From contig NC_088645.1 in NCBI RefSeq assembly GCF_964019385.1, positions 15,484,064 through 15,548,063 of the forward strand: a stretch of DNA of 64,000 bases, read 5' to 3'. Below the pieces are notes generated by a model that was given only the letters and a program-made list of their open reading frames with translations, did not search any database and was not told the origin of the DNA. Source of the DNA: Sycon ciliatum. Taxonomy: Eukaryota; Porifera; Calcarea; Leucosolenida; Sycettidae. The position numbers were made by a program, and so were the translations under genes. Below are positions 3,280 through 62,000 of this stretch, piece after piece. Numbering within the stretch: the stretch's first letter is position 1; every line of letters begins with the position of its first letter.

Positions 3280-3523
3280 TATGTGTGAATGAGCTCAGTA
3301 CTGATAAACAAGGACTGCCATATCCTGTGATGCTCACAAATTCCACAAGAAAAAAGCAAGAAACAAGCCCAAGACTCATCACCGCAGCACCTACCTGACA
3401 TATTTGTTGAAGTTGCAGTATGAACAAAGCTGACGACAGAATGGCCACTGAAATGATAGAAACACATTCATGATTTTCAGAAGTTATTTGCATGAATTAT
3501 TGTTTGAACAACATTAATATTCA

Positions 3524-5300
3524 ATGTGTTGGTCACTGAATACCACTGCTGACGTACGTAAAATAAATTCTGAGATCCTCTACATGTACAGGCAGGATAT
3601 AATAAAATTTAATACGTTATTGAATGGAAACCAGGATTCACAACTACCCAATGATGCAGAGTCCATTCAGATACGACGACGTAACCACGCTCATCGGAAA
3701 TGGCTGCAATCTAAGTGCCAGACTGATTACGATGCGTTTAAAGAAGCCAGGCGTATCGTGACTCGTATGAACCGTGAATTGAAGACGAATTTTTTTCAGT
3801 CTAAGTTCACCAGTGTTCAAGGTAATCCCAGGAAAACGTGGAAGGTTTTGAACGAGTTATCCGGAAGACAACGTGTTCAATCCGTTCCACAATGCTCTGC
3901 AAGCAACATTGGGTGTGTATTTGCTGATGTTGTCAGTGATCAACAACGAGCACCTGAACTGTGTCTTCCACAGGGCCCAGTGGGACCTAAGGGTTTTACA
4001 TCCTTCAGTTCGGTGTCAATAGGTTGTGTGCGTAAACTGTTGGGTTCCTTGGACACCAGCAAAGCGACAGGCAGTGATGGAATACCCGCATTTCTTCTGA
4101 AGTCCTGCGCTGATTTGCTAGCTCCCTCCTTAACATTGATATTTAATGCATCTCTTGCTGTTGGTTCTGTGCCGGACGGCATGAAGTTGGCACATGTCAC
4201 GCCGGTATTCAAGGCTGGAAATCCTCAAGATCAGGGAAATTATCGCCCTGTGGCTCTCCTGCCAATTGTGTCGAAGCTGTTAGAACGAATTGTCCATAGA
4301 CAACTATCCTCATTTCTAGACAAGGAGAATTTGTACCCTCCCTGTCAGTTTGGCTTTAGACCTCAACATTCAACGGAAGACGCTCTAGTTTTCGTCACGG
4401 ACACGTTTGTTCGCGCTCGCGATGCCGGACAAATTACTGGTGCTGTGCTCGTGGATATGTCCAAAGCATTTGACAAGGTCAGGCACCAAGTGCTCATTAA
4501 TGATTTGTTTGAGCTTGGCATATCTGGTTCAGCATTAGTTTGGTTTGCCGACTATTTGTCCAATCGTCGCCAAATAGTGCACATTGCTGAGAACTATAGC
4601 CCTCCTTTCCCCTGCATGTGTGGCGTTCCCCAGGGCTCTGTTCTTGGTCCGCTGCTTTTTGTACTCTATGTTCGTTCGATCCAGTCCATTGTCTCCGAGT
4701 TTTGTGTGAAAGTTATTCAATTTGCTGACGATATTCTATTGTATGTTTGCGGTACGCAGAAGAATGCGCTTAGCAACTCCCTGTCTGCAGCTGTCTCAGC
4801 CATTAGTACCTGGCTGTCAAACCGCAATTTAATTATAAATGCCCGGAAGACACAAGTGCTCTTCCTGTCTACGCCACATATTACTGACCACCAATTTGCA
4901 GTCTACTGTCATGGAGTGCAGCTCAAGCAAGTGACATGTGCAAAGTACCTTGGAATACATTTGGACCAGGATCTTTCTTGGAGGACTCAAGTTGATTCTA
5001 TGGTCACCAAACTTGCCAGTAAAATTGGTATTCTGTTCCGAAATCGACACAATATTCCGCTGACTTGCCGAGAAACCTTTGTAAAGTGCCTAGTGTTGCC
5101 AGATTTTCTATATGCATCAAATTGTTTTTCTGCTGGCCTTTCCTTAACCCAGTTAGGTAGGCTTGAACGAATGCTAAAGCGAGCTTTGCGTTCAGTGTAC
5201 GATACTGGTTTTTGTAGCCCATCAAGCCCTTTATTTGCGAGACTTGGTCTAGATCGTTTGGCATCCATGTATTGCAAGAAATTACTGTATCTGACGTGGC
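3524..5300 (+). pseudogene. Non-LTR retrotransposon reverse transcriptase, 5' and central part (interrupted)
   Basis: A CR1/L2/Jockey-like reverse transcriptase. In the first 592 residues the linker before the RT domain is at about 50-110. The RT blocks are RPVALLPIVSKLLERIV (241-257), GFRPQHSTEDAL (277-288), catalytic motif A with D311 (VDMSKAFD), motif B GVPQGSVLGP (367-376), and motif C FADDILLY with D402/D403. A thumb-type KYLGIHLD block follows (474-481). No endonuclease domain precedes it, so the copy is probably 5' truncated; the ATG at 3524 is simply the first in frame. The frame is open until it runs into a DNA transposon at 5301, where eight foreign residues and a stop follow. The continuation is at 9207-9239 and 9479-9693. 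Confidence 0.92.
5296..5300. other. Target-site duplication, left copy (GTGGC)
   Basis: GTGGC immediately precedes the transposon terminus CACTGCTG and is repeated exactly at 9202-9206 after the other end. Five-base GC-rich duplications are characteristic of RAG/Transib-type transposition. Confidence 0.9.
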
Positions 5301-5325
5301 CACTGCTGATTTCATGTGGCCACTG
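5301..5325. repeat. Left terminal repeat of RAG1-like transposon (short spacer)
   Basis: The terminal octamer CACTGCTG (5301-5308) is followed by a 7-bp spacer (5309-5315) and the box GTGGCCACTG (5316-5325). This is the end nearest the stop codon of the RAG1-like gene. The same box also occurs at 5296-5305, formed by the target duplication plus the first five bases of the element. Confidence 0.75.
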
Positions 5326-5577
5326 AGCAAGATGGCGGAAATTTCGTCACGTGCATGAAACATGACCATCACCATGGTAGTTTCCGACAGCGTCACGACG
5401 CTGACACAGTGAGATGTAGAAAATAAGAAAAAATCTGTGACCTACCAAAACAAAAGTGCAAAGATCATAGCCGGGTTCATCATGCTACACTTACCAGACT
5501 AGACTGTAGTACGAACTCGGAGGAAGACCAAAATAATGTTTGTAGCTGCTGGATGCGATCGGAAGAAGGAGGCTCCG

Positions 5578-8500
5578 TCACTCCTCTCGATCTTCATTGC
5601 ATGCGGAGCTGCTAGAATCGTAGTGCTTTCTCTTTCGACTCTCGGGGAAGAGAGGTACCTGGCGGGGGAGTGTAGACGACAAGTGTTGCTTCACCGTCGT
5701 GCGGAGACGCTGCAATTCATTCACGATACCCTCGTGGCGATGCTGGAGTGAATTGAACTCGTGGTGGATACTCTCGCCACCCTGCTCGGCGAGGAGTCCC
5801 ATACCAACGCCGAACTCTTTCACAGCGCCTGGCAAATGTGCCTCCAGGAGATGCAGTTTGGGCGTGATGTTGCCGAGCCGCCTGGCCACCACCTCACGTC
5901 TTGCTGTTGCCATGAACGTGGACACATCCGACTGGAACTCGGTCACGTCACCAGGCGACATCCGCAAGCACGACGAATATCTCCGCCTGCAAGCAGCAAA
6001 TTGCTGGAACAGGGCCATGTACCGCTCCTGGATCATTTGAGCTGCCGCGATGAGCTCCTGTGTAGAATTTCTACATGGCTCACCAATGACTGAGGAAGGT
6101 GCCGATGTGAGGTCGTGTAGCACAGCTGGCTGGAGGGCATGATGCACATGGTTGCCTACGAAAGCTCGACTGTGGTAGCGTTGTCGGCAGATGTGGTGCC
6201 GTTGAAGAATGATCTCCAAGGAGGACTCGCATGGGCCAGACATCTTCTTTCCGCCTTTATCTATCTCCTCTTTCAACTTCCGGATGTCGGCCTCCAGCAT
6301 TGCTGTAGCTTGTGCCTGCTGTGCGCACTGCACCTGGATCGCACCTGCGGCCGCTTGTAGCTGTGCTTGCGATAGCATGTGGCCATGCAGGGCAAGCCAG
6401 TCCAGCTGGTTCTTGAGACCAGTGGCTGCGTTCTGCGCAGTACGCAGCTCAACTTCCTTGCCACGATATCGCTGGTGAGCAGCAACGACTGCGCAGAACT
6501 CGTTGCTGTCAGTATTAACGGTGGGGCTAGACGCTGCAGCAAGTGACACATCTAAAGCCTGGCAGTCCTTCACCATGGCTTCGAAACCCCACTGGAATAT
6601 GCCCAAGTCCAAATGAAGCACGGGAATAACAGCGTTGCAGATCTCAATGGGCAGGATTACTGGCCGAATACAATTGTCGTATTTCTTGGCATCAACGAGG
6701 TGACCACCTGCTGCTGAGAAGCTACTATACTTCTCACTGAGTGAGGCGAGCGAGCGGCGATCTACAGAGGTGCCAGTGCCGAGCTGCATATCTGCCTTTG
6801 TGATGGTGCAGTGCAGACAGGGATGTACAGCACTGGACCCTGATAGTCCATATTGCACGGTCTGAAATTCGTAGTCACCATACAGCAACACTCTGACAGT
6901 CTTGCCCTGCCACGATGTTGTCTGCAATAGCTTCACTTGCTCGACGAATGGGTGCAGTGCTGTGGTTAGGTTTGCTGGACTGTCCTTTGCAGCGAAGACC
7001 AGGAATGGCACAATATTCCTGATGGCATTTGCCTTCTTCACGTTAACAATTTGGAAGGACATCTTGAAGGAGTCACCACCGTGGTCTCCTCCAACCTTGA
7101 CCCAGACTTCGTCTGCTGGAATAGCACCCTCGTGCCAGTGCAGTTGCTGTGTTGCCTGCAGTTCGTCTAGGTACGAGTGGACTGTGCCAACAAGATCTGG
7201 AAGCATCACGACTGGCCTTGCTACCACAGTACCAGTCTTGTTCACGAAAGGAACATTCTCGGCCACTATATCAAACCGCAGCTGATCATGTAGCTGCTGA
7301 CGCATTGCACGCTCCGACTCTAAGCGGACACCATAGTCTTTCATCCACACTCTCAGCTTTCGCAGCTGGTTCCAGGGCATGTGTAAGTCAGCCTTCAAGG
7401 CGAGTGTGCTGCCAGTGCCTGGTGTCTTAGCTATAATGCCGGCAGCATTGAGGAGTGCATCACGCTCCTCCTTCTCCATATGACTAATGCTAGCAGCTTG
7501 CTGAGCAATCACGCCTTCACTGCTCCCACACACTAGTGTGTGTGTCTGTTTCAGCTCAGCACTACGGCGACGTACTGTTCTGGCCGAAGCATCCTGTGAA
7601 GGAACTGTGGCTACTGTAGTTCGCTTCCAAGTTTGCGACGGACCCCTCCCACGCAATTCCAGCATTCCATTATCGGCTTTTGTTTTGACAAGGTGCCCTG
7701 TGAGCACATCTGACATACTTCCTCTCAACTTTGTAGGTGATGCATTCAGTATGTCTCCAACCTGTGTGGCCTTTGTCACTGTGTGCTTTTGTGTATTGTT
7801 ACATGTTTGGACATGCGGTCGAAGCTGAGACAGGGGCATGACTTCTGAACAGCCATTAAATGCGTCTGCATAATTGTCACAATGTATACATATTTCCGCC
7901 AATACACTCTGACAGCAAACAGATGGCAACACAAGCTGCGAAGCAGACATTGCAGATCTGCACACAGGACAACTTGCTTTAATCCCAAGCCAATGCCAAA
8001 TGCAATCTGTGCAGAAAGAGTGCTGGCAACACTTGGCTTCCACTGCTTTGTTGATGATATGTTTGCATATGCTGCAAGTTATTGCAGATAATTGCTGTAT
8101 GAATCGGCTTGGACTTAGTTCTTGCCCAGTGCTGTAATTCGGCGTAGCGACAGCAATCAGCTGCTCCTTTGTTATATCTTGACCGGCATTTTCCTTTTGA
8201 GCAGCTTGTGACTGTGTGTGTGTGCATGTATGATCAGGGTCTTTCTGGCTTGCTGTGGTGCTATGGGTGCCAATACTGTCATGTGCACATTGCCCTGGCC
8301 GCGGAGTTGCAGAGGCCGATTCTGAACGGCTCTGTGGTTGTTTGCGCACCACGTCTTTCCTTTTCGGCCGGCCAGGTTTCTTACTTTCACTAACAGTGGC
8401 ACATGTCTGGCATGTCTTAATGTCTTCATCAACGTAATCATGCGGATGCCATTGAACAGGGCTACCACAGCCTCCGCCACAACGCTCATACTCAGAGCTG

Positions 8501-8718
8501 TTCACATGGCTCAAGCACCTGCATACTGTTTTGTAGCACAGGCTACACATTCGTTTGGGGTGCACATCCAGCTGGTCATTTCCCACATGCACACCAAAGG
8601 CTTTCTGGATGCCACTAGCATGGCTATCCACTGCGTAGCTCGTACTTTGTTTCGCCTTAGACAGCTTCACGCCACCTATACGGCATAGCAGGGATAGTGA
8701 CTGTGCATGACCTGCCAT
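5578..8718 (-). CDS. RAG1L: RAG1-like recombinase/transposase (1046 aa)
   Basis: Predicted DDE transposase related to the V(D)J recombinase subunit RAG1. The N-terminal zinc region has CSLC (58-61), WHPH (90-93) and CQTC (103-106), as in the RAG1 N-terminus; the expected CxxC near residue 12 reads CRIGG, so one ligand is missing. A C3HC4 RING finger uses C215, C218, C230, H233, C236, C239, C250 and C253, followed by a C277/C280/C290/H302/C306 finger. In the core, D545 (GGDHGGDSF), D704 (LHLDLG) and E982 (EQGGES) align with the RAG1 catalytic triad; CLHC (634-637) and H956/H961 match the core zinc site, with E982 21 residues after H961 (20 in RAG1). A coiled-coil-like insert lies at about 780-825 and a basic SRKRK patch near the C-terminus. 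The ATG has A at -3 and G at +4. Single exon, no internal stop. Other RNase H-fold transposase families share the ESIH-like motif, but the N-terminal zinc module favours RAG1. Confidence 0.85.
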   Translation of the reverse strand: MAGHAQSLSLLCRIGGVKLSKAKQSTSYAVDSHASGIQKAFGVHVGNDQLDVHPKRMCSLCYKTVCRCLSHVNSSEYERCGGGCGSPVQWHPHDYVDEDIKTCQTCATVSESKKPGRPKRKDVVRKQPQSRSESASATPRPGQCAHDSIGTHSTTASQKDPDHTCTHTQSQAAQKENAGQDITKEQLIAVATPNYSTGQELSPSRFIQQLSAITCSICKHIINKAVEAKCCQHSFCTDCIWHWLGIKASCPVCRSAMSASQLVLPSVCCQSVLAEICIHCDNYADAFNGCSEVMPLSQLRPHVQTCNNTQKHTVTKATQVGDILNASPTKLRGSMSDVLTGHLVKTKADNGMLELRGRGPSQTWKRTTVATVPSQDASARTVRRRSAELKQTHTLVCGSSEGVIAQQAASISHMEKEERDALLNAAGIIAKTPGTGSTLALKADLHMPWNQLRKLRVWMKDYGVRLESERAMRQQLHDQLRFDIVAENVPFVNKTGTVVARPVVMLPDLVGTVHSYLDELQATQQLHWHEGAIPADEVWVKVGGDHGGDSFKMSFQIVNVKKANAIRNIVPFLVFAAKDSPANLTTALHPFVEQVKLLQTTSWQGKTVRVLLYGDYEFQTVQYGLSGSSAVHPCLHCTITKADMQLGTGTSVDRRSLASLSEKYSSFSAAGGHLVDAKKYDNCIRPVILPIEICNAVIPVLHLDLGIFQWGFEAMVKDCQALDVSLAAASSPTVNTDSNEFCAVVAAHQRYRGKEVELRTAQNAATGLKNQLDWLALHGHMLSQAQLQAAAGAIQVQCAQQAQATAMLEADIRKLKEEIDKGGKKMSGPCESSLEIILQRHHICRQRYHSRAFVGNHVHHALQPAVLHDLTSAPSSVIGEPCRNSTQELIAAAQMIQERYMALFQQFAACRRRYSSCLRMSPGDVTEFQSDVSTFMATARREVVARRLGNITPKLHLLEAHLPGAVKEFGVGMGLLAEQGGESIHHEFNSLQHRHEGIVNELQRLRTTVKQHLSSTLPRQVPLFPESRKRKHYDSSSSACNEDREE

Positions 8719-9201
8719 TTTTTAGCAGAACCACTACCCAAGTACGTCCATCAGTTTCCGGAATTCGCCATCGGATTGAAAAGAAACCAAAAGAATTTAC
8801 CACCTAAAGGGTCTAGCTTTGACAGGAAAATGAAAACAGGACGCTGAAAAATGGCAAAAGAACGTAGACAGAGCATTCCAATGAGGTACAAAGCGTTCGT
8901 GCAACAGAAGACGAGAAATATTCTCAACAAAACCTTCGTGTCGTTCGAAGAAGAATCGACTGGAGTCGCTGTTTTTTCTTCTCGTGTGAGTGCATCGTTG
9001 CCTTGTCCCTCAGATGTGCTGTATTAGAAGCACTTTCGAGGCACAGAAGTAGCTCAGACACATGGAAATCCGACATGTTCAAGCCTGTCTCGATCGACCG
9101 GTGAGAAGAAATTTGAAATTCTCAGGAGTCGACACAACCACTGAAGGCCGCCTCGTACCCAGGCACCAGTGGCCACGTACGGATCGTTTGGAACAGCAGT
9201 G
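8719..9201 (-). promoter_or_regulatory. 5' flank and right end of RAG1-like transposon (long spacer)
   Basis: This 483-bp noncoding stretch lies upstream of the RAG1-like start codon and must hold its promoter if the element is autonomous; no TATA box or other core element is obvious. Read inward from 9201 it begins CACTGCTG (9201-9194), then a 17-bp spacer, then GTGGCCACTG (9176-9167). Confidence 0.5.
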
Positions 9202-9206
9202 GTGGC
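9202..9206. other. Target-site duplication, right copy (GTGGC)
   Basis: Direct copy of the GTGGC at 5296-5300, abutting the terminal CAGCAGTG. Confidence 0.9.
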
Positions 9207-9239
9207 GCTGTTTGGAAGGCCGCTGTAGTGTCATATTAA
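9207..9239 (+). pseudogene. Reverse transcriptase fragment between two insertions
   Basis: These 33 bases continue the reverse-transcriptase frame from 5300; the joined residues across the site read LTWRCLEGRC, matching the position where related elements have a conserved LxxKCLxG-type segment. It ends in TAA at 9237-9239, the target duplication of the adjacent MITE. Confidence 0.8.
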
Positions 9240-9475
9240 GGGGTCGTCGCAAAAGTTTTTTGTCGTCCCTGAAACGAACATGATTCATTTGGGGGGGAGG
9301 GGGTGCGAGCCAAAATCACAAGTCGACCGACACTGTACATATGACATGTACATGCATGCGATTTTCGTCGTCCAGCATAGCAAGCTGTGTTCGTTTCAGA
9401 GGGAGGGGAGGGGGTCCGAGTACGAAATGAACGATGTTCGTTTCAGGGACGACAGAAAACTTTTGCGACGACCCC
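9240..9475. mobile_element. PIF/Harbinger-type MITE, 236 bp, TAA duplication
   Basis: Inverted repeats of about 50 bp start GGGGTCGTCGCAAAAGTTTT and differ at only a few positions. TAA is present at 9237-9239 and again at 9476-9478, a 3-bp TWA duplication as in PIF/Harbinger elements. Removal of the element and one TAA restores the host frame (residues VILSQMFERL across the junction). The short reading frames inside are by-products of the inverted repeats. Confidence 0.85.
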
Positions 9476-9478
9476 TAA

Positions 9479-9693
9479 GTCAAATGTTCGAGCGTTTAAA
9501 TAATGGTCTTGCAACGCGCAGCCTTGTATCACGCACTCTTAAGTTGCCCATGCTCAGAACTGCCTTTGCCAGTCATGGCGCTTCCTTCCAATGTGCTAAG
9601 CTGTGGAATGATTTGCACCCTCTAGCTCGCTGTGTGGATAACTCCGCCCGTTTTAAGAAACTGTTACCCCAATGCCTTGCTTTTTCACGCTAG
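9479..9693 (+). pseudogene. Reverse transcriptase C-terminus
   Basis: This completes the retrotransposon protein with a typical non-LTR C-terminal block: SRTLKLPMLRT, then AKLWNDLHPLARCVD and FKKLLPQCLAF before the stop at 9693. Summed with 3524-5300 and 9207-9239 the reconstituted frame is 2,025 bases, exactly 675 codons. About 150 bp of 3' untranslated sequence follows, ending in an A-rich tail with repeated AAAATCC at about 9840-9870. Confidence 0.85.
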
Positions 9694-42724: not shown

Positions 42725-45700
42725 CAAACTTCCCTTGAATGAGTGTGGGGTTGAAAGCAAGGCCAAGCCACTGTTCAATGCCAAGCATCTCTTGTCCACA
42801 GAATCACTGCCCATGGAGTATCAAAGCTATGCGAGCTGTTCATTTGCAAGCGTTCCACAGCCACACACTCACACTTCCCATTTGGGAGTGAGGTTGAATT
42901 CAAAACTGAGCCATCATACATTGCCAAGCAACATCCATCCCGAATAACCGGGAACGGAGACACAAGGTTGGCAAATCATTCATTTTTCAAGACAACCGGA
43001 GCTTAATACTTCCCTTGAAGGAGTGATGATGAACGCAACACTGAGATTCCATTTACTGCTAAGCAACACACGTCTCGAATTAGAGAAAAAGAGTAACCAA
43101 GCTTCCCCCATTCATCTTGTCAAGCATACCAAAAAGCCTCACACTTCCCTTGAAGGAGTGAGGTTCAATGCAAGACCTACCAATTATCTAATGCCCAGCA
43201 ACACATGCCCCGAATCAACGGGAACAGAGTCACCACACTGACCAACGGTTAATCTTGTCAAGCATAACAGAACCCCACACTTCCCTTGAAGGAGTGAGGT
43301 TCATTGCAAGACCGCCCCATCATTCACCGCCAAGCAACACATGCCTCGAATAAACAGGACTAAGTTGCCACCACACTGCCCAACTGTTCATCTTGTCAAG
43401 CATACCAAAGCCCCACACTTCCCTTCTAGGAGTGAAGTTCAATGCAAGACCGAGCCATCATTCACTGCCAAGCAACACATGCACCGAATCAACACGATCA
43501 AAGTCCCCACACTGCCCAACCGTTCTTCTTGCCAAGCATACCAAACGCGCACACTTCCCTTGAAGGAGTGAGTTGTAATGCAAGACGTAGCCATCCTTCA
43601 CTGCCAAGCAACACGTACCCAAATCAACGGGATCAAAGTCGCCACAATGCCCAATCGTTCATCTTGTCACGCACACCAAAGCCCCACACTTCCCTTGAAG
43701 GAGTGAGGTTCAATGCAGAAAAGAGCAATTATTCATTGCCAAGCAACGCATGCCCCGAATCACCAGGAACAAAGTCCCCGAACTGCCCAACCATCCACCT
43801 TGTCCAGCATACCAAAGAATCACACTTCCCTTGAAGGAGTGAGGTTCAACACACAAGACCGAACCATCATTCACTGCCAAGCAACATATACCTCGAATCA
43901 ACGGGATCGCAATCTCCGCACTGCCCAACCGTTCATCTTGTCAAGCATACAAAAGCCGCACACTTCCCTTGAAAGAGTGAGGATCAATGCAAGGCCGACC
44001 GTTCATTCACTGCCAAGCAACGCACTCGCCAAATCAAAGGAAACAGAGTCCCCACACTGCCCAACCGTTCATCTTGTCAAGCATATTAGGGCCCCACACT
44101 TCACTTGAAGGAGTGAGGTTCAATGCAAGACCGAGCCATCATTCACTGCCAACCAACAAATGCCAAGAATCAAAGGGATCAAAGTCGCCATACTGCCCAA
44201 CCAGTCATCTTGTCAAGCATACCAAAGCCCCACACTGCCCTTGAAGGAGTGAGGATCAATGCAAGATCGACTGATTATTCACTGCCAAGCAACTCAGACG
44301 CCTAATCAAGGGGAACAGAGTCCCAACACTGCCCAAACCGTTCATCTTGTCAAGCATACCAAAGCCCCGTACTTCCCTTGAAGGAGTGAGGTTCAATGCA
44401 AGACCGACCCATCATTCACTACCAAGCATAACATGCCCCGAATCAACGGGATCAAGGTCCCCACACAGCCCTCCCGTTCATCTTGTCAAGCACATCAGAG
44501 TCCCACACCTCCCTTGAAGGAGTGAGGTTCAATGCCAGAGGTTCAATGGAGGATCGATCCATCATTCACTGCCAAGCAACACATGCCCCGAATCAACGGC
44601 ATCAAAGCCTCCACACTGCCCAAACGTTCATCTTGTCAAGCATAGCAAAGCCTCACACTTCCCTTGAAGGAGTGAGGTACAATGCAAGACCGAGCAATCA
44701 TTCACTGCCAAGCAACACATGTGTAAATCAACAGGATCAAAGTCGCCACACAGCCCAACCGTGCATCTTGTCAACCACACCGAAGCCCTGCACTTCTCTT
44801 GAAGGAGTGAGGTTCAATGGAAGATCGATCCATCATTCACTGCCAAGCAACAAATGCCCCGAATCAACGTGATCACAGTCTTCGCACTGCCCAACCGTTC
44901 GTCTTGCCAAGCGTACCAAAGCCCCACGCTTCCCTTGAAGAAGTGAGGATCAATGCAAGATCGACCGATCATTCACTGCCAAGCAACGCACTCACCTTAT
45001 CAAAAGGAACAGAGTCTCCAAACTGCCCAACCGTTCATCTTGTCAAGCATATTAGGGCCACACACTTCCCTTGAAGGAGTGAGGTTCAATGCCAGACCGA
45101 GCCATCAATCACTGCCAACAAACACATGCCCCGAATCAACGGGATCAAAGTCGCCACACTGCCCAACCGTTCATCTTGTCAAGCATACCAAAGCCTCACA
45201 CTGCCTTTGAAGGAGTGAGGATCAATGCAAGTTCTACCGATTATTCACTGCCCAGCAACTCACACGCCCAATCACGGGGAACAGAGTCCCCACACTGCCA
45301 AACCGTTCATCTTGTCAAGCATATCAGAGCCCCACACTTCCCTTGAAGGAGCGAGGTTCAATGCCCGACCGAGCCATCATTCACGGCAAACCAACACATG
45401 CCCAGAATCAACGGGATCAAAGTCGCCACACTGCCCGACCGTACATCTTGTCAAGCATACCAAAGCCCAACACTTCCCTTGAAGGAGTGAGGTTCAATGC
45501 AAGATCGACCCATCATCAGTCGCAGCACTGCCCAAGCGTTCATTTTGTCAAGCATACCAAAGCCTCACACTTCCCTTGAAGGAGTGAGAATCAATGGAAG
45601 ATTGACCGATTATTCACTGCCAAGCAACTCGGACGCCTAATCAAGGGGAACAGAGTCCCCACACTGCCCAACCGTTCACTTTGTCAAGCATACCAAAGCC

Positions 45701-48700
45701 CCACACTTCCCTTGAAGGAGTGAGGATCAATGCCAGAGGTTCAATGGAAGATCGATCCATCATTCACTGCCAAGCAACACATGCCCCGATTCAACGGCAT
45801 TATAGCCTCCACACTGCCCAAACGTTCATCTTGTCAAGCATAGCAAAGCCTCACACTTCCCTTGAAGGAGTGAGGTTCAATGCAAGACCGAGCCATCACT
45901 CACTGCCAAGCAACACATGCCCCGAATCAACGGGATCAAAGTCGCCACCCTGCCCAACCGTTCATCTTGTCAAGCATACCAAAGCCCCACACTTCCCTTC
46001 AATGCAAGATCGACCGATCATTCGCTGCCAAAAGACAAACACGGCTAATAGAAGGGAACATAGTCCCCACACCGCCCAATCGTTCATCTTGTCAAGCATA
46101 TCAGAGTCCCACACTTCCCTTGAAGGAGTGAGGTTCAATGCCAGACCGACTCATCATTCACTGCCAAGCAACACATGCCCCGGATCAACGGGATCAAGGT
46201 CCCCACACTGCACCACCGTTCATCTTGTCAAGCATATCAGAGTCCCACACCTCCCTTGATGAAGTGAGATTCAATGCCAGAGGTTCAATGGAAGGGAGAT
46301 CCATCATTCACTGCCAAGCAACACATGCCCCGAAACAACGGCATCAAAGCCTCCACACAGCCATTAACGTTCATCTCGTCAAGCATAGCAAAGCCTCACA
46401 CTTCCCTTGAAGGAGTGAGGTTCAATGCAAGACCGAGCCATCACTCACTGCCAAGCAACACATGCCCAAAATCAACGGGATCAAAGTCGCCACACAGCCC
46501 CAACCGTTCATCTTGTCAACCATACCAAAGCCCCACACTTCTCTTGAAGGAGTCAGGTTCAATGGAAGATCGATCCATCATTCACTGCCGAGCAACAAAT
46601 GCCCCGAATCATCGGCAATAAAGCCTCCACACTGCCCAAACGTTCATCTTGTCAAGCAAACCAAAGCCCCACACTTCCCTTGAAGGAGTGAGGTTCAATA
46701 CAAGACCGAACCACCATTCACTGCCAACCTACAAATGCCACGAATCAACGTCGCCACACTGATCAAAGTCGCAACACTGCCCAACCGTTCATCTTGTCAA
46801 GCCTACCAAAGCCTCACACATCCCTTGAAGGATTGAGGATCAATGCAAGATCGACCGATTATTCACTGCCAAGCAACTCAGATGCCTAATCAAGGGGAAC
46901 AGAGTCCCCACACTGCCAAACCGTTCATCTTGTCAAGCATATCAGAGCCCCACACTTCCCTTGAAGGAGTGAGGTTCAATGCAGGACAGCGCCATTATTC
47001 ACCGCCAAGCAAACAATGCTCCGAATCACCAGGAACAAAGTCGCTGAACTGCCCAACCGTTCACCTTGTAAAGCATACACAAGCCCCACACTTCCCTTGA
47101 AGGAGTGAGGTTCAATGCAAGACCGACCCATCATTCACTGCCAAGCAACACATGCCACGAATCAACAGGATCAAAGTCTCCACACTGCCCAACCGTTCAT
47201 CTTGTCAAGCATACTACAGCCCCACACTTCCCTTGAAGGAGTGAGGTTCAATGCCAGACCGACCCATCATTCACTGCCAAGCAACGCATGCCCCGAATCA
47301 ACGGGATGAAGGTCCCCACACTGCCCTACCGTTCATCTTGTCAAGCATATCATAGTCCCACACTTCCCTTGAAGGAGTGAGGTTCAATGCCAGAGGTTCA
47401 ATGAAAGATCGATCCATCATTCACTGCCAAGCAACACATGCCCCGAATCAACGGCATCAAAGTCTCCACACTGCCCAAACGTTTATCTTGTCAATCATAG
47501 TAAAGCCTCACACTTCCCTTGAAGGAGTGAGGTTCAATGCAAGACCGAGCCATCACTCACTGCCAAGCAACACATGCCCCGAATCAACAGGATCAAAGTC
47601 GCCACACTGCCCAACCGTTCATCTTGTCAAGCAAACCAAAGCCTCCCTTGAAGGAGTGAGGTTCAATGCAAGATCGACCGATCGTACACTGCCAAAAGAC
47701 GAACACGCCTTATCAAAGGGAACATAGTCCCCACACCGCCCAACCGTTCATCTTGTCAAGCATATCAGAGCCCCACACTTCCCTTGAACGAGTGAGGTTC
47801 AATGCCAGACCAAACCATCATTAGCTGCCCACCAACAAATGCCCCGAATCAACGGGATCAAAGTCGCCATACTGCCCAACCGTTCATCTTGTCAAGCATA
47901 CAAAGCCTCACACTTCCCTTGAAGGAGTGAGGATCAATGCAAGATCGACCGATTATTCACTGCCAAGCAACTCAGACGCCTAATCAAGGGGAACAGAGTC
48001 CCCACACTGCCAAACTGTTCATCTTGTCAAGCATATCAGAGCCCCACACTTCCCTTGAAGGAGTGAGGTTCAATGCAGGACAGCGCCATTATTCACCGCC
48101 AAGCAAACCATGCTCCGAATCACCAGGAACAAAGTCGCCGAACTGCCCAACTGTTCATCTTGTCAAGCATACACAAGCCCCACACTTCCCTTGAAGGAGT
48201 GAGGTTCAATGCAAGACCGACCCATCATTCACAGTCAAGCAACACATGCCACGAATCAACAGGATCAAAGTCTCCACACTGCCCAACCGTTCATCTTGTC
48301 AAGCATACAACAGCCCCACACTTCCCTTGAAGGAGTGAGGATCAATGCAAAATCGACCGAATATTCAATGCCAAGCAACTCACACGCCTAATCGAAGGGA
48401 ACAGAGTTCCCACACTACCCAACCGTTCATCTTGTGAAGCATATCAGAGCCCCACACTTCCCTTGAAGGAGTGAGGTTCAATGCCAGACCGACCCATCAT
48501 TCACTGCCAATCAACACATGCCCCAAATCAACGGGATCAAAGTTCCCACACTGCCTAACCGTTCATCTTGTCAAGCATATCAGAGTCCCACACTTCCCTT
48601 GAAGAAGTGAGGTTCAATGCCAAGCCGCCATCATTCAAGATCAACTAACACATGCCCCGAATCAACGGGATCAAAGTCCACACACTGCCCAACCGTTCAT

Positions 48701-50795
48701 CTTGTCACGCACACCAAAGCCCCACACTTCCCTTGAAGGAGTGAGGTTCAATGCAGGAAAGAGCAATTATTCAATGCCAAGCAACGCATGCCCCGAATCA
48801 CCAGGAACAAAGTCCCCGAACTGCCCAACCATTCACCTTGTCCAGCATACCAAAGCCTCATACTTCCCCTGAAGGACTGAGGTTCAATCCAAGACCGAGC
48901 CATCATTCACTGCCAACCAACACATGCCCCGAATCAACGGGATCAAAGTCGCCACCTGCCCAACCGTTCATCTTGCAAAGCATACAAAAGCCCCACACTT
49001 TTCTTGAAGGAGTGAGGTTCAATGCAAGATCGAGCCATCATTCACTGCCAAGCAACACATGCCCCGGATCAACGGCATCAAAGCCTCCACACTGTCTAAA
49101 CATTCCTATTGTCAAGTATACCAAAGCCCCACACTTCCCTTGAAGGAGTGAGGTTCAACACACAAGACCGAACCATCATTTACTGCCAAGCAACATATAC
49201 CCCGAATCAACAGGATCGCAGTCTCCGCTTTGCCCAACCGTTCATCTTGTCAAGCACACCAAAGCCGCACACTTCCCTTGAAGGAGTGAGGATCAATTTA
49301 ACTTCGACCGTTCATTCACTGCCAAGCAACGCATTCCCCTAATGAAAGGGAACAGAGTCCCCACACTGCCCAACCTTTCATCTTGTCAAGCATATCAGAG
49401 CCCCACACTTCCCTTGAAGGAGTGAGGTTCATTGCAAGACCGAGCCATCATTCACTGCCAACTAACACATACGCAGAATTAACGGGATCAAAGTCTCCAC
49501 ACTGACAACCGTTCATCTTGTCAAGCATATCAGGGCCCCACACTTCCCTTGAAGGAGTGAGGTTCAATGCAAGACTGACCCATCATTCACTGGCAAGCAA
49601 CACATGCCCCGAATCAGCGGGAACAGTCATCACACGGCCCAACTGTTCATCTTGTCAAGTATAACAGAATCACACACTTCCCTTGAAGGAGTGAGGTTCA
49701 ACGCAAGACCGAGCTATCATTCACTGTGAAGCAACGCACGCCCCGTATCACCAGGACAAAGTCACGACACTGCCCAACCGTTCACCTTGTCAAGCATACC
49801 AAAGCCTCACACTTCCCTTGAAGGAGTGAGGTTCAATGCAAGACCGAGCCATTATTCACTGCCAAGGAGCACATGCCCCGAGTCAACGGGATCAAAGTCC
49901 CCACACTGCCCAACCGTTCATCATGTCAACAATACGAACGCCTCACACTTTCCTTGAAGGAGTGAGGTTCAATGCAAAACCGACCCATCATTCACTGCCA
50001 AGCAACACATGCCCCGAATCAACGGTATCAAAGTCCCCACACTGCCCAACCCTTCATCTTGTCAAGCATAACGGCAACCCCACACTTCCCTTGAAGGAGT
50101 GAGGTTGATTACGAGACCAAGCCACTGTTTAATACCAAGCAACACACGTCCCGAATCATCGGGAATGGAGTCACAAGGCTGCCCAAACCGTCCAGTTGTC
50201 AAGCGTATCAGAGCCCCACACTTCCCTTGAAGGAGCGAGGTGGAAAGCAAGACTTAGCCATTCTTCAATGCCAAGCAACACACGTCCCGAATCACCGGGT
50301 ATGGAGTCACAAGGCTGCCCAAACCGTTCATTTGTCAATCAGAACAGAGCCCCACACTTCCCTTGAAGGAGTGAGGTTGAAAGCAAGACTTAGCCATTCT
50401 TCAATGCCAAGCAACACACATCCCGAATTACCGGGTATGGAGTCACAAGGCTGCCCAACCGTTTATTTGTCAAGCGTATCAGAGCCCCACACTTCCCTTG
50501 AAGGAGTGAGGTTGAATGCGAGACCAAGCCATTGTTCAACACCAAGCAACACACTTCCCGAATCACCGGGTATGGAGTCACAAGGCCGCCCAAAACGTTC
50601 AGTTGGCAAGCGTATCAGAGCCCCACACTTCACCGTTGAAGGAGTGAGGTTGAATGCGGGACTAAGCCATTGTTCAAATTGTTCACTGCCAAGCAACACC
50701 TCCCCCGAATCACCGGGTATGGAGTTGCAAAACTGTACCAGTCGTTTACATCATCAAGCAATGCAGAGCCTCGCAACTTCCCTGAAGGAGCAAGG
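42725..50795 (+). repeat. 136-bp satellite array 1 (about 59 units)
   Basis: Head-to-tail units of 136 bp built on CTTCCCTTGAAGGAGTGAGG, CATTCACTGCCAAGCAACAC, and ACCGTTCATCTTGTCAAGCA. The first few units (42725-43080) and last few (50060-50795) are diverged, and central units are more alike, as expected for arrays maintained by unequal exchange. Since 136 leaves remainder 1 on division by 3, each unit shifts frame and each frame stays open for 85 codons before the TGA in CCTTGAAGG; the resulting 85-residue frames recur every 136 bp and are not genes. Confidence 0.97.
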
Positions 50796-56005: not shown

Positions 56006-59000
56006 AAACTTCCCTTGAATGAGTGTGGGGTTGAAAGCAAGGCCAAGCCACTGTTCAATGCAAAGCATCTCTTGTCCACAGAATCACTGGCCATGGAGTA
56101 ACAAAGATATGCGAACTGTTCATTTGCAATCGTTCCACAGCCACACACTCACACTTCCCATTTGGGAGTGAGGTTGAATTCAAAACTGAGCCATCATTCA
56201 CTGCCAAGCAACATCCGTCCCGAATAACGGGGAACGGAGACACAAGGTTGGCAAATCATTCATTTTTCAAGCCAATCGGAGCTTAATACTTCCCTTGAAG
56301 GAGTGATGATGAACACAACACTGAGATTCCATTTACTGCTAAGCAACACACGCCTCGAACTAGGGAAAAAGAGTAACAAAGCTTCCCAACCATTCATCTT
56401 GTCAAGCATACCAAAGCCTCACACTTCCCTTGAAGGAGTGAGGTTCAATACAAGACCGACCAATTATTTGATGCCAAGAAACACATGCCCCGAATCAACG
56501 GGAACAGAGTCACCACACTGCCAAACCGTTCATCTTGTCAAGCATAACAGAACCCCACACTTCCCTTGAAGGAGTGAGGTTTATTGCAAGACCGCCCCAT
56601 CATTCACCGCCAAGCAACACATTCCTCGAATCAACAGGACTAAGTTGCCACCACACTGCCCAACTGTTCATCTTGTCAAGCATACCAAAGCCCCACACTT
56701 CCCTTGAAGGAGTGTGGTTCAATGCAAGACCGAGCCATCATTCACTGCCAAGCAACACATGCACCGAATCAACACGATCAAAGTCAGCACACTGCCCAAC
56801 CGTTCATCTTGTCAAGCATACCAAAGCCGCACACTTACCTTGAAAGAGTGAGGATCAATGCGAGATCGACCGATCATTCACTGCCAAGAAAAGCACACGC
56901 CTAATCAAAGAGAACAGAGTCCCCGCACTGCCCAACCGTTCATCTTGTCAAGCATATCAGGACCCCAGACTTCCCTGGAAGGAATGAGGTTCAATGCATG
57001 ACCGAGCCCTCATTCACTGCCAACCAACACATGCCCCGAATCAGCGGCATCAAGGTCACCACACTGCCCACCCGTTCATCTTGTCAAGCATGCTAGAGCC
57101 CCGCACTTCCCTTGAAGGCGTGAGGTTCAATGCAAGTTCGCGCCATCATTCACTGCAAAGCAACGCACGCCCCAAATCAAAGGGAACAAAGTCACCACAT
57201 TACCCAACCGTTCGTCTTGTCAAGCATATCAGAGCCCCACACTTCCCTTGAAGGAGTGAGGTTCAATGCAAGACCGAGCCATCATTCACTGGCAACCAAC
57301 ACATGGCCCGAATTAACGCCATCAAAGCCTCCACACTGTCCAACCGTTCATCTTGTCAACCAAACCAAAGCCCCACACTTCTCTTGAAGGAGTGAGGTTC
57401 AATGCAAGATCGATCAATCATTCACTGCCAAGCAACACATGCCCCGAATCAACGGCATCAAAGCCTCCACACTGCCCCAACGTTCATCTTGTCAAGCATA
57501 CCAAAGCCTCGCACTTCCCTTGAAGGAATGAGGTTCAATGCAAGACCGAGCCATCACTCACTGCCAAGCAACACATGCCCCAAATCAACGGGATCAAAGT
57601 CGCCACACAGCCCAACCGTTCATCTTGTCCACCATACCAAAGCCCCACACTTCTCTTGAAGGTGTGAGGTTCAATGGAAGATCGATCCCTCATTCACTGC
57701 CAAGCAACACATGCCCGAATCAACGTTCAGCTTGTCAAGCATACCAAAGCCCCACACTTCCCTTGAAGGAGTGAGGTTCAATTCAAGACCGAACCATCGT
57801 TCACTGCCAAGCAACATATACCCCGAATCAATGGGATCAAAGTCGCCACACTGCCCAACCGTTCATCTTGTCAACCAAACCAAAGCCGCACACTTCTCTT
57901 GAAGGAGTGAGGTTCAATGGAAGATCGATCCATCATTCACTGCCGAGCAACACATGCCCCGAATCAACGGCATTAAAGCCTCCACACTGCCCAAACGTTC
58001 ATCTTGTCAAGCTTACCAAAAGCCCTTCACTTCCCTTGAAGGAGTGAGGTTCAATACAAGACCGAACCATTATTCACTGCCAACCAACCAATGAAACGAA
58101 TCAACGTCGCCACACTGGTAGAAGTCGCCACACTGCCCAACCGTTCATCTTCTCAAGCCTACCAAAGCCTCACACTTCCCTTGAAGGAGTGAGGATCGAT
58201 GCAAGATCGACCAATTATTCACTGCCAAGCAACTCACACGCCTAATCAAGGGGAACAGAGTCCCCACACTGCCAAACCGTTCACCTTGTCAAGCATATCA
58301 GAGCCCCACACTTCCCTTGAAGGAGTGAGGTTCAATGCAGGACAGCGCCATTATTCACCGCCAAGCAAACCATGCTCCGAATCACCAGGAACAAAGTCAG
58401 TGAACCATCGTTCACTGCCAAGCAACATATACCCCGAATCAATGGGATCAAAGTCGCCACACTGCCCAACCGTTCATCTTGTCAACCATACCAAAGCCTC
58501 ATACTTCCCTTGAAGAAGTGAGGTTCAATGCAAGACCGAGCCATCATTCACTGCCAAGCAACACATGCCCCGAATCAACAGGATCAAAGTCGCCACACTG
58601 CCCAATTGTTCATCTTGTCAACCATACCAAAGCCCCACACTTCTCTTGAAGGAGTGAGGTTCAATGCAAGACCGAGCCATCACTCACTGCCAAGCAACAC
58701 ATTCCCCAAATCAACGCGTTCAAAGTCGCCACACAGCCCAAACGTTCATCTTGTCAACCATACCAAAGCCCCACACTTCTCTTGAAGGTGTGTGGTTCAA
58801 TGGAAGATCGATCCCTCATTCACTGCCAAGCAACACATGCCCCGAATCAACGGCAGTAAAGCCTCCACACTGCCCAAACGTTCATCTTGTCAAGCATACC
58901 AAAGCCCCACACTTCCCTTGAAGGAGTGAGGTTCAATACAAGACCGAACCATCGTTCACTGCTAAGAGACATATACCCCGAATCAACGGGATCAAAGTCG

Positions 59001-62000
59001 CCACACTGCCCAACCGTTAATCTTGTCAACCATACTAAAGCCGCACACTTCTCTTGAAGAAGTGAGGTTCAATGGAAGATCGATCCATCACTCACTGCCA
59101 AGCAACACATGCCCCGAATCAACGGGATCAAAGTCGCCACACTGCCCAACCGTTCATCTTGTCAAGCATACGACAGCCCCACACTTTCCTTGAAGGAGTG
59201 AGGATCAATGCAAGATCGACCGATTATTCAATGCCAAGCAACTCACACGCCTAATCGAAAGGAACAGAGTCCCCACACTGCCCAACCGCTCATCTTGTGA
59301 AGCATATCAGATCCCCACACTTCCCTTGCAGGAGTGAGGTTCAATGCCAGACCGACCCATCATTCATTGCCAAGCAACACATGCCCCAAATCAACGGGAT
59401 CAAAGTCCCCACACTGGCCAACCGTTCATCTTGTCAAGCATAACAGAGTCCCACACTTCCCTTGAAGGAGTGAGGTTCAATGCCAAGCCGCCATCATTCA
59501 AGGCCAACTAACACATGCCCCGCATCAACGGGATCAAAGTCCACACACTGCCCAACCGTTCATCTTGTCACGCACACCAAAGCCCCACACTTCCCTTGAA
59601 GGAGTGAGGTTCAATGCAGGAAAGAGCAGTTATTCATTGCCAAGCAACGCATGCCCCAAATCACCAGGAACAAAGTCCCCGAACTGCCCAACCATTCACC
59701 TTGTCCAGCATACCAAAGCCTCATACTTCCCTTGAAGGAGTGAGGTTAAATGCAAGACCTAGCCATCATTCACTGCCAAGCAACACATGCCCCAAATCAA
59801 CGGGATCAAAGTCGCCACACAGCCCAACCGTTCATCTTGTCAACCGTACCAAAGCCCCACACTTCTCTTGAAGGAGTGAGGTTCAATGGAAGATCGATCC
59901 ATCATTCACTGCCGAGCAATACATGCCCCGAATCAACGGCATTAAAGCCTCCACACTGCCCAAACGTTCATCTTGTCAAGCATACCAAAGCCCCACAATT
60001 CCCTTGAAGGAGTGAGGTTCAATAACAGACCGAACAATCATTCACTGCCAAGCAACATATATCCCGAATCAACGTGATCACAGTCTCCGCACTGCCCATC
60101 CGTTCATCTTGCCAAGCATACCAAAGGCCCACACTTCCCTTGAAGGAGTGAGGTTCAATGCTAGACCGAGTCATCATTCACTGCCAACCAACACATGCCC
60201 CGAATCAACGGGATCAAAGTCGCCACACTGCCCAACCGTTAATCTTGTCAAGCATACCAAAGCCTCACACTTCCCTTTTCCCTTGAAGGAGTGAGGTTCA
60301 ATGCAAGACCGAGCCATCATTCACTGCCTACCAACACATGCCCCGAATCAACGGGATCAAAGTCGCCACACTGCCCAACCGTTGCTCTTGTCAAGCATAC
60401 CAAAGCCTCACACTTCCCTTGAAGGAGTGAGGTTCAATGCAAGACCTAGCCATCATTCACTGCCAAGCAACACATGCCCCAAATCAACGGGATCAAAGTC
60501 GCCACACAGCCCAACCGTTCATCTTGTCAACCGTACCAAAGCCCCACACTTCTCTTGAAGGAGTGAGGTTCAATGGAAGATCGATCCATCATTCACTGCC
60601 GAGCAATACATGCCCCGAATCAACGGCATTAAAGCCTCCACACTGCCCAAACGTTCATCTTGTCAAGCATACCAAAGCCCCACAATTCCCTTGAAGGAGT
60701 GAGGTTCAATAACAGACCGAACAATCATTCACTGCCAAGCAACATATATCCCGAATCAACGTGATCACAGTCTCCGCACTGCCCATCCGTTCATCTTGCC
60801 AAGCATACCAAAGGCCGACACTTCCCTTGAAGGAGTGAGGTTCAATGCTAGACCGAGTCATCATTCACTGCCAACCAACACATGCCCCGAATCAACGGGA
60901 TCAAAGTCGCCACACTGCCCAACCGTTAATCTTGTCAAGCATACCAAAGCCTCACACTTCCCTTTTCCCTTGAAGGAGTGAGGTTCAATGCAAGACCGAG
61001 CCATCATTCACTGCCTACCAACACATGCCCCGAATCAACGGGATCAAAGTCGCCACACTGCCCAACCGTTGCTCTTGTCAAGCATACCAAAGCCTCACAC
61101 TTCCCTTGAAGGAGTGAGGTTCAATGCAAGACCGAGCCATCATTCACTGCCAACCAACACATGCCCCGAATCAACGGGATCAAAGTCGCCACACTGCCCA
61201 ACCGTTCATCTTGTCAAGCATACCAAAGCACTTCCCTTGAAGGAGTGAGGATCAATGCAAGATCGACCGATTATTCACGGCCAAGAAACTCAGATGCCTA
61301 ATCAAGGGGAACAGAGTCCCCACACTGCCCAACCGTTCACCTTGTCAAGCATACCAAAGACCCACACTTCCCTTGAAGGAGTGAGGTTCAATGCCAGACC
61401 GACCCATCATTCACTGCCAAGCAACACATGCCCCGAATCAACGGGATCAAGGTCCTCACACTGCCATACCGTTCATCTTGTCAGGCATATCAGAGTCCCA
61501 CACTTCCCTTGAAGGAGTGAGGTTCAACGCCACAGGTTCAATGCAAGACCGAGCCATCACTCACTGCCAAGCAACACATGCCCCGAATCAACGGGATCAA
61601 AGTCCACACACTGCCCAACCGTTCATCTTGTTACGCACCCCAAAGCCCCACACTTCCCTTGAAGGAGTGAGGTTCAATGCAGGAAAGAGCAATTATTCAT
61701 TGCCAAGCAACGCATGCCCCGAATCACCAGGAACAAAGTCCCCGAACTGCCCAACCATTCACCTCGTCCAGCATACCAAAGCCTCATACTTCCCTTGAAG
61801 GAGTGAGGTTCAATGCAAGATCGAGCCATCATTCACTGCCAAGCAACACATGCCCCGAAACAACGGCATCCAAGCTTCCACACTGTCTAAACGTTCCTTT
61901 TGTCAAGTATACCAAAGACCCACACTTCCCTTGAAGGAGTGAGGTTCAACGCACAAGGCCGAACCACCATTCACTGCCAAGAAACACATACCCCGAATCA

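Follow-up and report, generated by a model that had tools for sequence, protein, structure and literature searches.

A Probable CHAPA-RING Chapaev Transposon in the Sponge Sycon ciliatum with Terminal Motifs Offset by One Helical Turn

Introduction

Here, we describe a complete DNA transposon at positions 5301 to 9201 of a 64,000-nucleotide window of the genome of the calcareous sponge Sycon ciliatum (contig NC_088645.1, forward-strand positions 15,484,064 to 15,548,063; the window is the whole stretch of DNA analyzed, and positions without a contig name count from its first letter). Judged by its domains, motifs, and ends, this focal element very probably belongs to the CHAPA-RING subgroup of Chapaev, as a presumably autonomous transposon of the cut-and-paste type. 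Its two ends are built unequally, in that the spacer between the terminal octamer and a second motif measures 18 bp at the 5′ end of the gene and 8 bp at the 3′ end, a difference of 10 bp, or one helical turn, that recurs at the ends of related families in the same genome.

The Transib superfamily is split into Transib, TransibSU, Chapaev, and Chapaev3 (Kapitonov & Koonin 2015, PMC4411706), with two Chapaev subgroups carrying a CHAPA domain followed by a RING (PMC4411706). The domain DUF1280 is equated with Chapaev and placed in one clade with RAG1 (PMC3985635), and Chapaev elements are described as having CAC/GTG ends, the motifs C(2)C, LH, and H(4)H, and target-site duplications that generally measure 3 to 4 bp (PMC4079192). 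A broader clade, whose duplications span 2 to 5 bp, unites Chapaev and Transib (PMC12730594).

Boundaries of the Element and Its Empty Site

The left border reads GTGGC followed by CACTGCTG at 5296–5308, and the right border reads CAGCAGTG followed by GTGGC at 9194–9206. When the window was scanned for 8-bp inverted ends starting with CAC, adjoined by a 5-bp duplication and lying 0.5–10 kb apart, 5301–9201 was the sole pair obtained, compared to a mean of 0.1 pairs in 20 base-shuffled windows. Without the CAC requirement, 11 end/duplication pairs are found in the window, and thus such ends alone are no proof of a transposon.

The borders are defined by the target, which is the reverse-transcriptase open reading frame (ORF) of a long interspersed nuclear element (LINE; Pfam RVT_1, E 4.5e-39) that also contains another, unconnected element, 236 bp long, which has GGGGTCGTCGC as its inverted ends and is flanked by duplicated TAA. 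Excising the transposon together with one GTGGC, and the nested 236-bp element together with one TAA, yields a continuous LINE frame of 676 amino acids (aa), which aligns without gaps across both junctions to the uninterrupted relative P0018 at 98% identity (19 mismatches over 638 aligned positions in a second alignment). Furthermore, a search of the genome (313 contigs, 538 Mb) with the 101 bp preceding the insertion gave 40 matches, being those scored among 169 candidates, and 20 of the 40 were cut out. One of these (L059) is the focal site itself, and each of the 19 others reads CTGACGTGGC followed directly by GCTGTTT, with a single GTGGC and no insert. The empty sites and the P0018 alignment therefore settle the boundaries and the duplication, and bear out the initial annotation, which had proposed a complete transposon with true ends. 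We also looked for similarity to other transposon copies running past either border; by eye, it ends at 5301 (C10 and C1 copies) and at 9201 (a fragment at C1:51716), the C10 and C1 copies having lost their right tips. At the site of the 236-bp element, 13 of the 19 other LINE copies read TTAAGTCAAATG.

The Transposase and Its Domains

The transposase is encoded by a single open frame of 1,046 aa on the minus strand, intact as originally annotated, with 277 and 483 bp of the element lying outside it. Among the stop-to-stop frames of the element, to which the search was confined (a spliced gene was not sought), no further one exceeds 138 aa, and thus an unspliced RAG2-like gene does not fit. 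Pfam assigns DUF1280 (PF06918) to the ORF with E 1.2e-17 and a RING with E 2.4e-7, and gives a weak match to the RAG1 importin-binding domain (RAG1_imp_bd) that lies under the cut-off (E 0.0079), while the RAG1 core, PF12940, is unlisted at a max_evalue of 10 (the filters drop most matches above ~0.1). In an alignment of 15 members, several of them fragments (A2), DUF1280 is found in 15/15, RAG1_imp_bd in 12/15, and zf-RING_2, the commonest RING model there, in 11/15 at E 0.1 or better.

Searching a 14-sequence profile against the PDB returned full-length RAG1 as the best match (E 7e-21). The matching stretches are N-terminal (33.6 bits), RING (36.4 bits), and C-terminal, and they follow one another alike in both proteins. 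For the four RAG1 chains displayed, the C-terminal stretch scores only between 6.5 and 9.3 bits; here, the GGES of the transposase falls on a RAG1 glutamate, which we take to be E962. Weighing against this kinship, PDB searches with the core alone, either as a single sequence or as a five-sequence profile, found no RAG1, and thus the relationship of the catalytic core rests on the C-terminal match and the order of the motifs. By these profile comparisons, CHAPA and RING match RAG1 clearly, and the core distantly. The sole PF12940 match reported in the genome (seven candidates scored) is over the Pfam cut-off (27.6 bits, E 1e-6); this locus was considered as a true RAG1L gene and dropped, as it proved to be a Chapaev C-terminal ORF, 37% identical to the focal one. 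This match supports a kinship of the core with RAG1 better than the PDB comparisons do. Relatives were also sought in viral contigs and GTDB contigs, where none was confirmed.

Eight residues form the conserved set of the core, namely D545, D615, C634, C637, H702, H956, H961, and E982, and all eight are kept in 7/7 ORF rows from six genome families; in A2, C634 is present in 13/14 rows (W in P0015). We infer that D545, D615, and E982 form the catalytic triad. C634/C637 correspond to the C(2)C motif, H702 to LH, and H956/H961 to H(4)H. D615 aligns with a RAG1 aspartate, presumably D708, in a stretch that is itself nonsignificant (−4 to 0.3 bits). D704 had been considered as the second catalytic aspartate and was dropped, since C(2)C is expected to come after that aspartate (PMC12730594) and the profile alignment sets D615 on the RAG1 D.

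Copies and Target-Site Duplications in the Genome

Complete copies of the group are common in this genome, where the rarity suggested for such completeness is not borne out: of the 45 places scored in a protein search, 30 show a frame of 1,000 aa or more and a match free of stops, and 45 elements were found with both ends and a duplication. Some of the 150 matches to DUF1280 (150 scored of 231 candidates) and of the 122 to RAG1_imp_bd (137 scored of 255 candidates) are fragments. Copies of the sister family F54 are 98–99.9% identical, and several have different duplications; F54 therefore moved recently. The recent activity that had been proposed for the focal element is thus clear for its sister family and less so for its own, in which the other copies are broken. 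The EukProt entry P0002, whose scpid/scgid numbering is that of Sycon ciliatum, shows no measurable distance to the genome family F59 (L016).

Three further observations concern these copies. Six sister-family copies (G000 C2:45633521-45636535 and five similar places) have one in-frame TGA each in the protein match, for which a short intron, recoding, or a lesion common to the copies might account. Elements of ~2.5–2.9 kb with 8/18 ends (G000 C1:267452-270085 and similar places) occur beside the full-ORF ones of 3.7–4.1 kb, and are possibly many-copy non-autonomous derivatives. Finally, in the locus pairs L018/L025 and L024/L026, whole 6-kb stretches at different places are 99.9% alike, being either duplicated segments or uncollapsed haplotypes.

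Among the 45 elements with both ends and a duplication, the latter measures 4 bp in 41 and 5 bp in three (focal GTGGC, GGCCG at L032, and CCTCT at C1:56795458), with one ambiguous case in a CA repeat. These elements were collected in batches of 17, 2, 23, and 3, all but the 23 having been selected by requiring a duplication; the 23 were chosen by position, and a duplication is present in 23/23. In a duplication search over 30 loci, 18 showed one of 4 or 5 bp, including L025, which shares the flanks of L018 and was left out of later counts, and none was found at the other 12 (L014, L015, L020, L023, L024, L026, L029, L031, L033, L037, L038, and L042).

Family Assignment

The placement in Chapaev was made from domain profiles, motifs, and ends taken together. 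The focal element has the DUF1280 core, the C(2)C/LH/H(4)H motifs, CAC...GTG ends, and CHAPA followed by RING. Duplication length is the trait that divides the element from its kin: the 3- to 4-bp duplications of Chapaev are seen in the kin (4 bp in 41/45) and not in the focal element, which instead has the 5 bp that are the rule in Transib and that most of its kin lack. The focal family also provides a single intact copy, as its C1 copy has two stops, its C10 copy is broken, and the remainder are fragments, which weighs against the present reading as a whole. The initial annotation had gone further and suggested a recently active lineage of the family from which V(D)J recombination arose. An element of that directly ancestral group, i.e., a RAG1-like (RAGL) element or a Transib proper, would account for a GC-rich 5-bp duplication, a CAC start, and N-terminal and RING domains matching RAG1. 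It is nevertheless very improbable here: PF12940 is unlisted where DUF1280 scores strongly, the kin elements overwhelmingly make 4-bp duplications, the element has no second frame long enough for an unspliced RAG2-like gene, and the core alone finds no RAG1. What stands of the earlier description is a protein related to RAG1 through CHAPA and RING, on the DUF1280 branch rather than in RAG1/Transib proper, and a GTGGC duplication that is real without being the signature of a RAG-like lineage.

The 5-bp duplication could alternatively be a 4-bp duplication with one base added on insertion, with no true 5-bp stagger, as the prevalence of 4 bp in the group would suggest. We consider this somewhat unlikely, given that the CAC/GTG ends are exact, that the 5-bp repeat abuts both of them, and that L032 and C1:56795458 behave alike. 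That the whole arrangement is an assembly artefact or due to chance has a negligible probability: nothing was found in its favor, and the empty sites, the intact ORF, and the other elements with duplications of their own all stand against it.

Asymmetric Ends

Both ends of the focal element carry the tip octamer CACTGCTG and the second motif TGGCCAC, at the unequal spacings given above, an asymmetry that the initial annotation does not mention. The same offset is present in F59, F54, F43 (L032), F44, F1152, and F1034, with the second motif varying between families (TGGCCAC, GCGACAT, GGACAT) and its position constant. Of eight families scored, +10 is the single best shift in six and ties for best in a seventh. 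Matches at the fixed places amount to 48/56 (F43 5/7, F41 3/7), whereas 20,000 random placements averaged 14.2 and never exceeded 28; this figure is descriptive, because the families share ancestry and the places come from these very data. Five further families were then tried, and ends were located in three (8/18 in E1128, 8/17 in C1051, and unclear in A1031), while those of B1029 and D1024 were sought and not located. The 11 families with located ends thereby comprise eight with an exact 10-bp shift, one with 9 bp, and two unclear cases.

Pattern searches of the genome show the same spacings. The pattern CACGGCTGN{0,30}GCGACAT has 143 matches, compared to 11 for the pattern reversed. Among the 100 listed of these 143, the spacer is 8 in 34, 18 in 41, 17 in four, and another length in 21, and the 25 convergent pairs less than 15 kb apart comprise 24 of the type 8/18 and one 8/17, with no 8/8 or 18/18 pair. 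The pattern CACTGCTGN{0,30}TGGCCAC has 195 matches, compared to seven for its reverse; among the 100 listed of these, six of seven convergent pairs are 8/18, and we take the remaining one (6/7, 8.9 kb apart) as chance. In the same 100, the 28 places with spacer 8 consist, as we read them, of nine at known elements, 18 that carry the string of an unrelated long repeat, and one other, and the 11 places with spacer 18 of nine that look true and two others. The spacer-8 peak of this class is thus inflated, because the unrelated long repeat holds the string. This multicopy repeat (L067, L068; CACTGCTGCGAACTTCTGGCCAC) has the octamer, 8 bp, and TGGCCAC in its interior, with no end there, and the two places fetched are similar on both sides of the string, whose presence is either unrelated or due to chance.

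Several points weigh against a uniform offset. The shift is 9 in C1051, and A1031 shows no clear shift; F41 prefers +8 or +6 by score, or about +9 by eye on CCACT; F43 matches in five of seven bases there; and in F1152 four shifts tie for best. Moreover, the fixed places (26/16) had been taken from these data ahead of the first test, the families share ancestry, and many of the convergent pairs are copies of a few families, such that the independent units are families and not pairs.

A third motif also holds a fixed place. At offset 31 of the 3′ end, ATGGC is present in 11/11 families with located ends, in an AAnATGGC-like context, whereas 5.0% of 60-bp stretches drawn at random from the window contain ATGGC anywhere; among the 5′ ends, it is found in 5/11 families, at offsets 37–41. 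The nonamer CAAGATGGC, found in the 3′ end of the focal element and in F1152, is the exact reverse complement of the TR5 of ProtoRAG, GCCATCTTG. YY1 sites are common in transposons, and the fixed ATGGC motif may therefore be convergence. TR5 overlaps a YY1 site, and its loss lowers ProtoRAG recombination (PMC7481187).

A Possible Pairing of Unlike Ends

The features described above, namely the ends, duplication, empty site, ORF, family match, and positional asymmetry, are what was observed, and they suggest the following scheme. The transposase would bind each end through the tip octamer and the second motif, and would pair one 5′ end (18-bp spacer) with one 3′ end (8-bp spacer), as the 12/23 rule does for RAG. 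Cutting at CAC would be performed by an RNase-H-like D/D/E site, supported by the C(2)C/H(4)H zinc site, a step proposed from knowledge of the family. Insertion would follow with a 4-bp stagger, and sometimes a 5-bp one, as in the focal element; the stagger is deduced from the duplications. We infer which residues cut and which domain binds the second motif; at a guess, the region ahead of the core would take the role of the nonamer-binding domain of RAG1.

That the 8/18 asymmetry governs the pairing of unlike ends is a reading from position alone, which we favor with modest confidence. The asymmetry may instead be real and imply no pairing rule, the second motif being a host-factor or promoter element, or the arrangement an inherited accident with no role in synapsis. 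The families are indeed related, and the 3′ ends carry a YY1-like AAnATGGC close by, at a constant offset. We nevertheless consider this the less probable of the two, although a credible one, as the spacer lengths are kept among families whose proteins are 42–59% identical to the focal one and whose spacer sequences have diverged, the motif changes (TGGCCAC, GCGACAT, GGACAT) while its place is kept, and 75 of the 100 listed places of one motif class have a spacer of either 8 or 18.

Comparison with Known Systems

The closest described elements are the Chapaev transposons with CHAPA and RING, with which the focal element shares both domains and a distant Transib-like core (PMC4411706). It also has their CAC/GTG ends and the three motifs C(2)C, LH, and H(4)H (PMC4079192), and its kin have the 4-bp duplication. 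It differs from the known CHAPA-RING Chapaev in its sponge host, its 5-bp duplication, and its 8/18 ends, which the part of PMC4411706 consulted does not mention. It is a new member of a known subgroup, to whose range it adds a sponge.

With ProtoRAG and other RAGL elements, the focal element has in common CAC tips, bipartite ends with unequal spacers, and a RAG1-type N-terminus (PMC8289069, PMC7481187), and the GCCATCTTG/CAAGATGGC motif occurs in the ends of both (PMC7481187). ProtoRAG, however, has RAG2L, 5-bp duplications, spacers of 27/31, and an oppositely oriented TR5 (PMC8289069, PMC7481187), whereas in the focal element no RAG2L was seen among unspliced frames, the spacers are 8/18, and the core is DUF1280. 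RAG1 with its 12/23 recombination signal sequences (RSS), and the few 12/23-like Transibs, share the DDE and zinc sites with it (PMC8355894), and the spacer difference is near one helical turn in both, at 11 bp in the RSS and 10 bp in the focal element (PMC8355894). The focal element differs from RAG1/RSS in core family, tip sequence, second motif, and usual duplication length.

The N-RAG-TP element of Aplysia was reportedly described by Panchin and Moroz in 2008. It shares a RAG1 N-terminal-like region within a mobile element (via PMC8355894), and differs from the element described here, which has a full DDE core in the same ORF. Spacer asymmetry as such has already been reported for RSS, ProtoRAG, and a few Transibs (PMC8289069, PMC8355894): symmetric ends are attributed to most Transibs (PMC8289069), and 12/23-like ends to a few (PMC8355894). 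Among the titles and beginnings of abstracts listed, we found no prior report of an 8/18 asymmetry in Chapaev, Repbase Reports not having been searched.

Feature Coordinates and Other Repeats in the Window

The coordinates of all features of the locus are collected in Table 1. Elsewhere in the window, positions 1–969 hold a tandem array of 30 copies of a 32-bp unit with 97% matches, and two large satellite-like arrays of a 136-bp unit occupy 43111–50657 and 56150–64000, the former being also readable with a unit of 272 or 408 bp.

Table 1. Features of the Focal Element and Its Target, in Window Coordinates
Feature	Positions	Strand	Remarks
Complete DNA transposon, probably of Chapaev type	5301–9201	−	3,901 bp; minus-strand gene, hence 9201 is the 5′ end
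Target-site duplication GTGGC, left copy	5296–5300	.	
Target-site duplication GTGGC, right copy	9202–9206	.	
Interrupted LINE reverse-transcriptase ORF (target), left part	3518–5300	+	
Same LINE ORF, right part	9479–9693	+	9207–9236 also part of the LINE ORF
Separate 236-bp element within the same LINE copy	9240–9475	.	GGGGTCGTCGC inverted ends, TAA duplication
3′-end tip octamer CACTGCTG	5301–5308	+	
3′-end second motif TGGCCAC	5317–5323	+	8 bp from octamer
CAAGATGGC, reverse complement of ProtoRAG TR5/YY1 nonamer	5328–5336	+	3′ end
5′-end second motif TGGCCAC	9169–9175	−	18 bp from octamer
5′-end tip octamer CACTGCTG	9194–9201	−	
Transposase ORF	5578–8718	−	1,046 aa, single open frame
CHAPA / RAG1 N-terminal zinc domain	8401–8685	−	Residues about 12–106; Pfam match weak, E 0.0079
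RING finger	7957–8079	−	Residues 214–254
DUF1280 (PF06918), part of core	6922–7407	−	Residues 438–599
D545 (GGDHGG), putative catalytic	7084–7086	−	D in 15/15 A2 rows including focal
D615 (GDYE), putative catalytic	6874–6876	−	D in 13/14 A2 rows with a residue; H in P0011
E982 (GGES), putative catalytic	5773–5775	−	E in 10/10 A2 rows with a residue

Conclusions

How the 12/23 rule arose has long been debated. The focal element belongs to a lineage that would lie outside Transib/RAG proper and that combines a RAG1-type N-terminus, a RING, and a DDE core in one ORF with ends that differ by 10 bp. It is conceivable, although we regard it as doubtful, that the common ancestor of the Chapaev, Transib, and RAG transposons already possessed an end-pairing rule based on a difference of one helical turn, with the 12/23 rule of V(D)J recombination as its later form. 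If this were true, the sponge would retain intact, recently mobile elements in which such a pairing rule could be tested without RAG2. With dozens of intact frames in one genome, Sycon ciliatum may offer a one-protein system for testing the function of end asymmetry, RING, and CHAPA.

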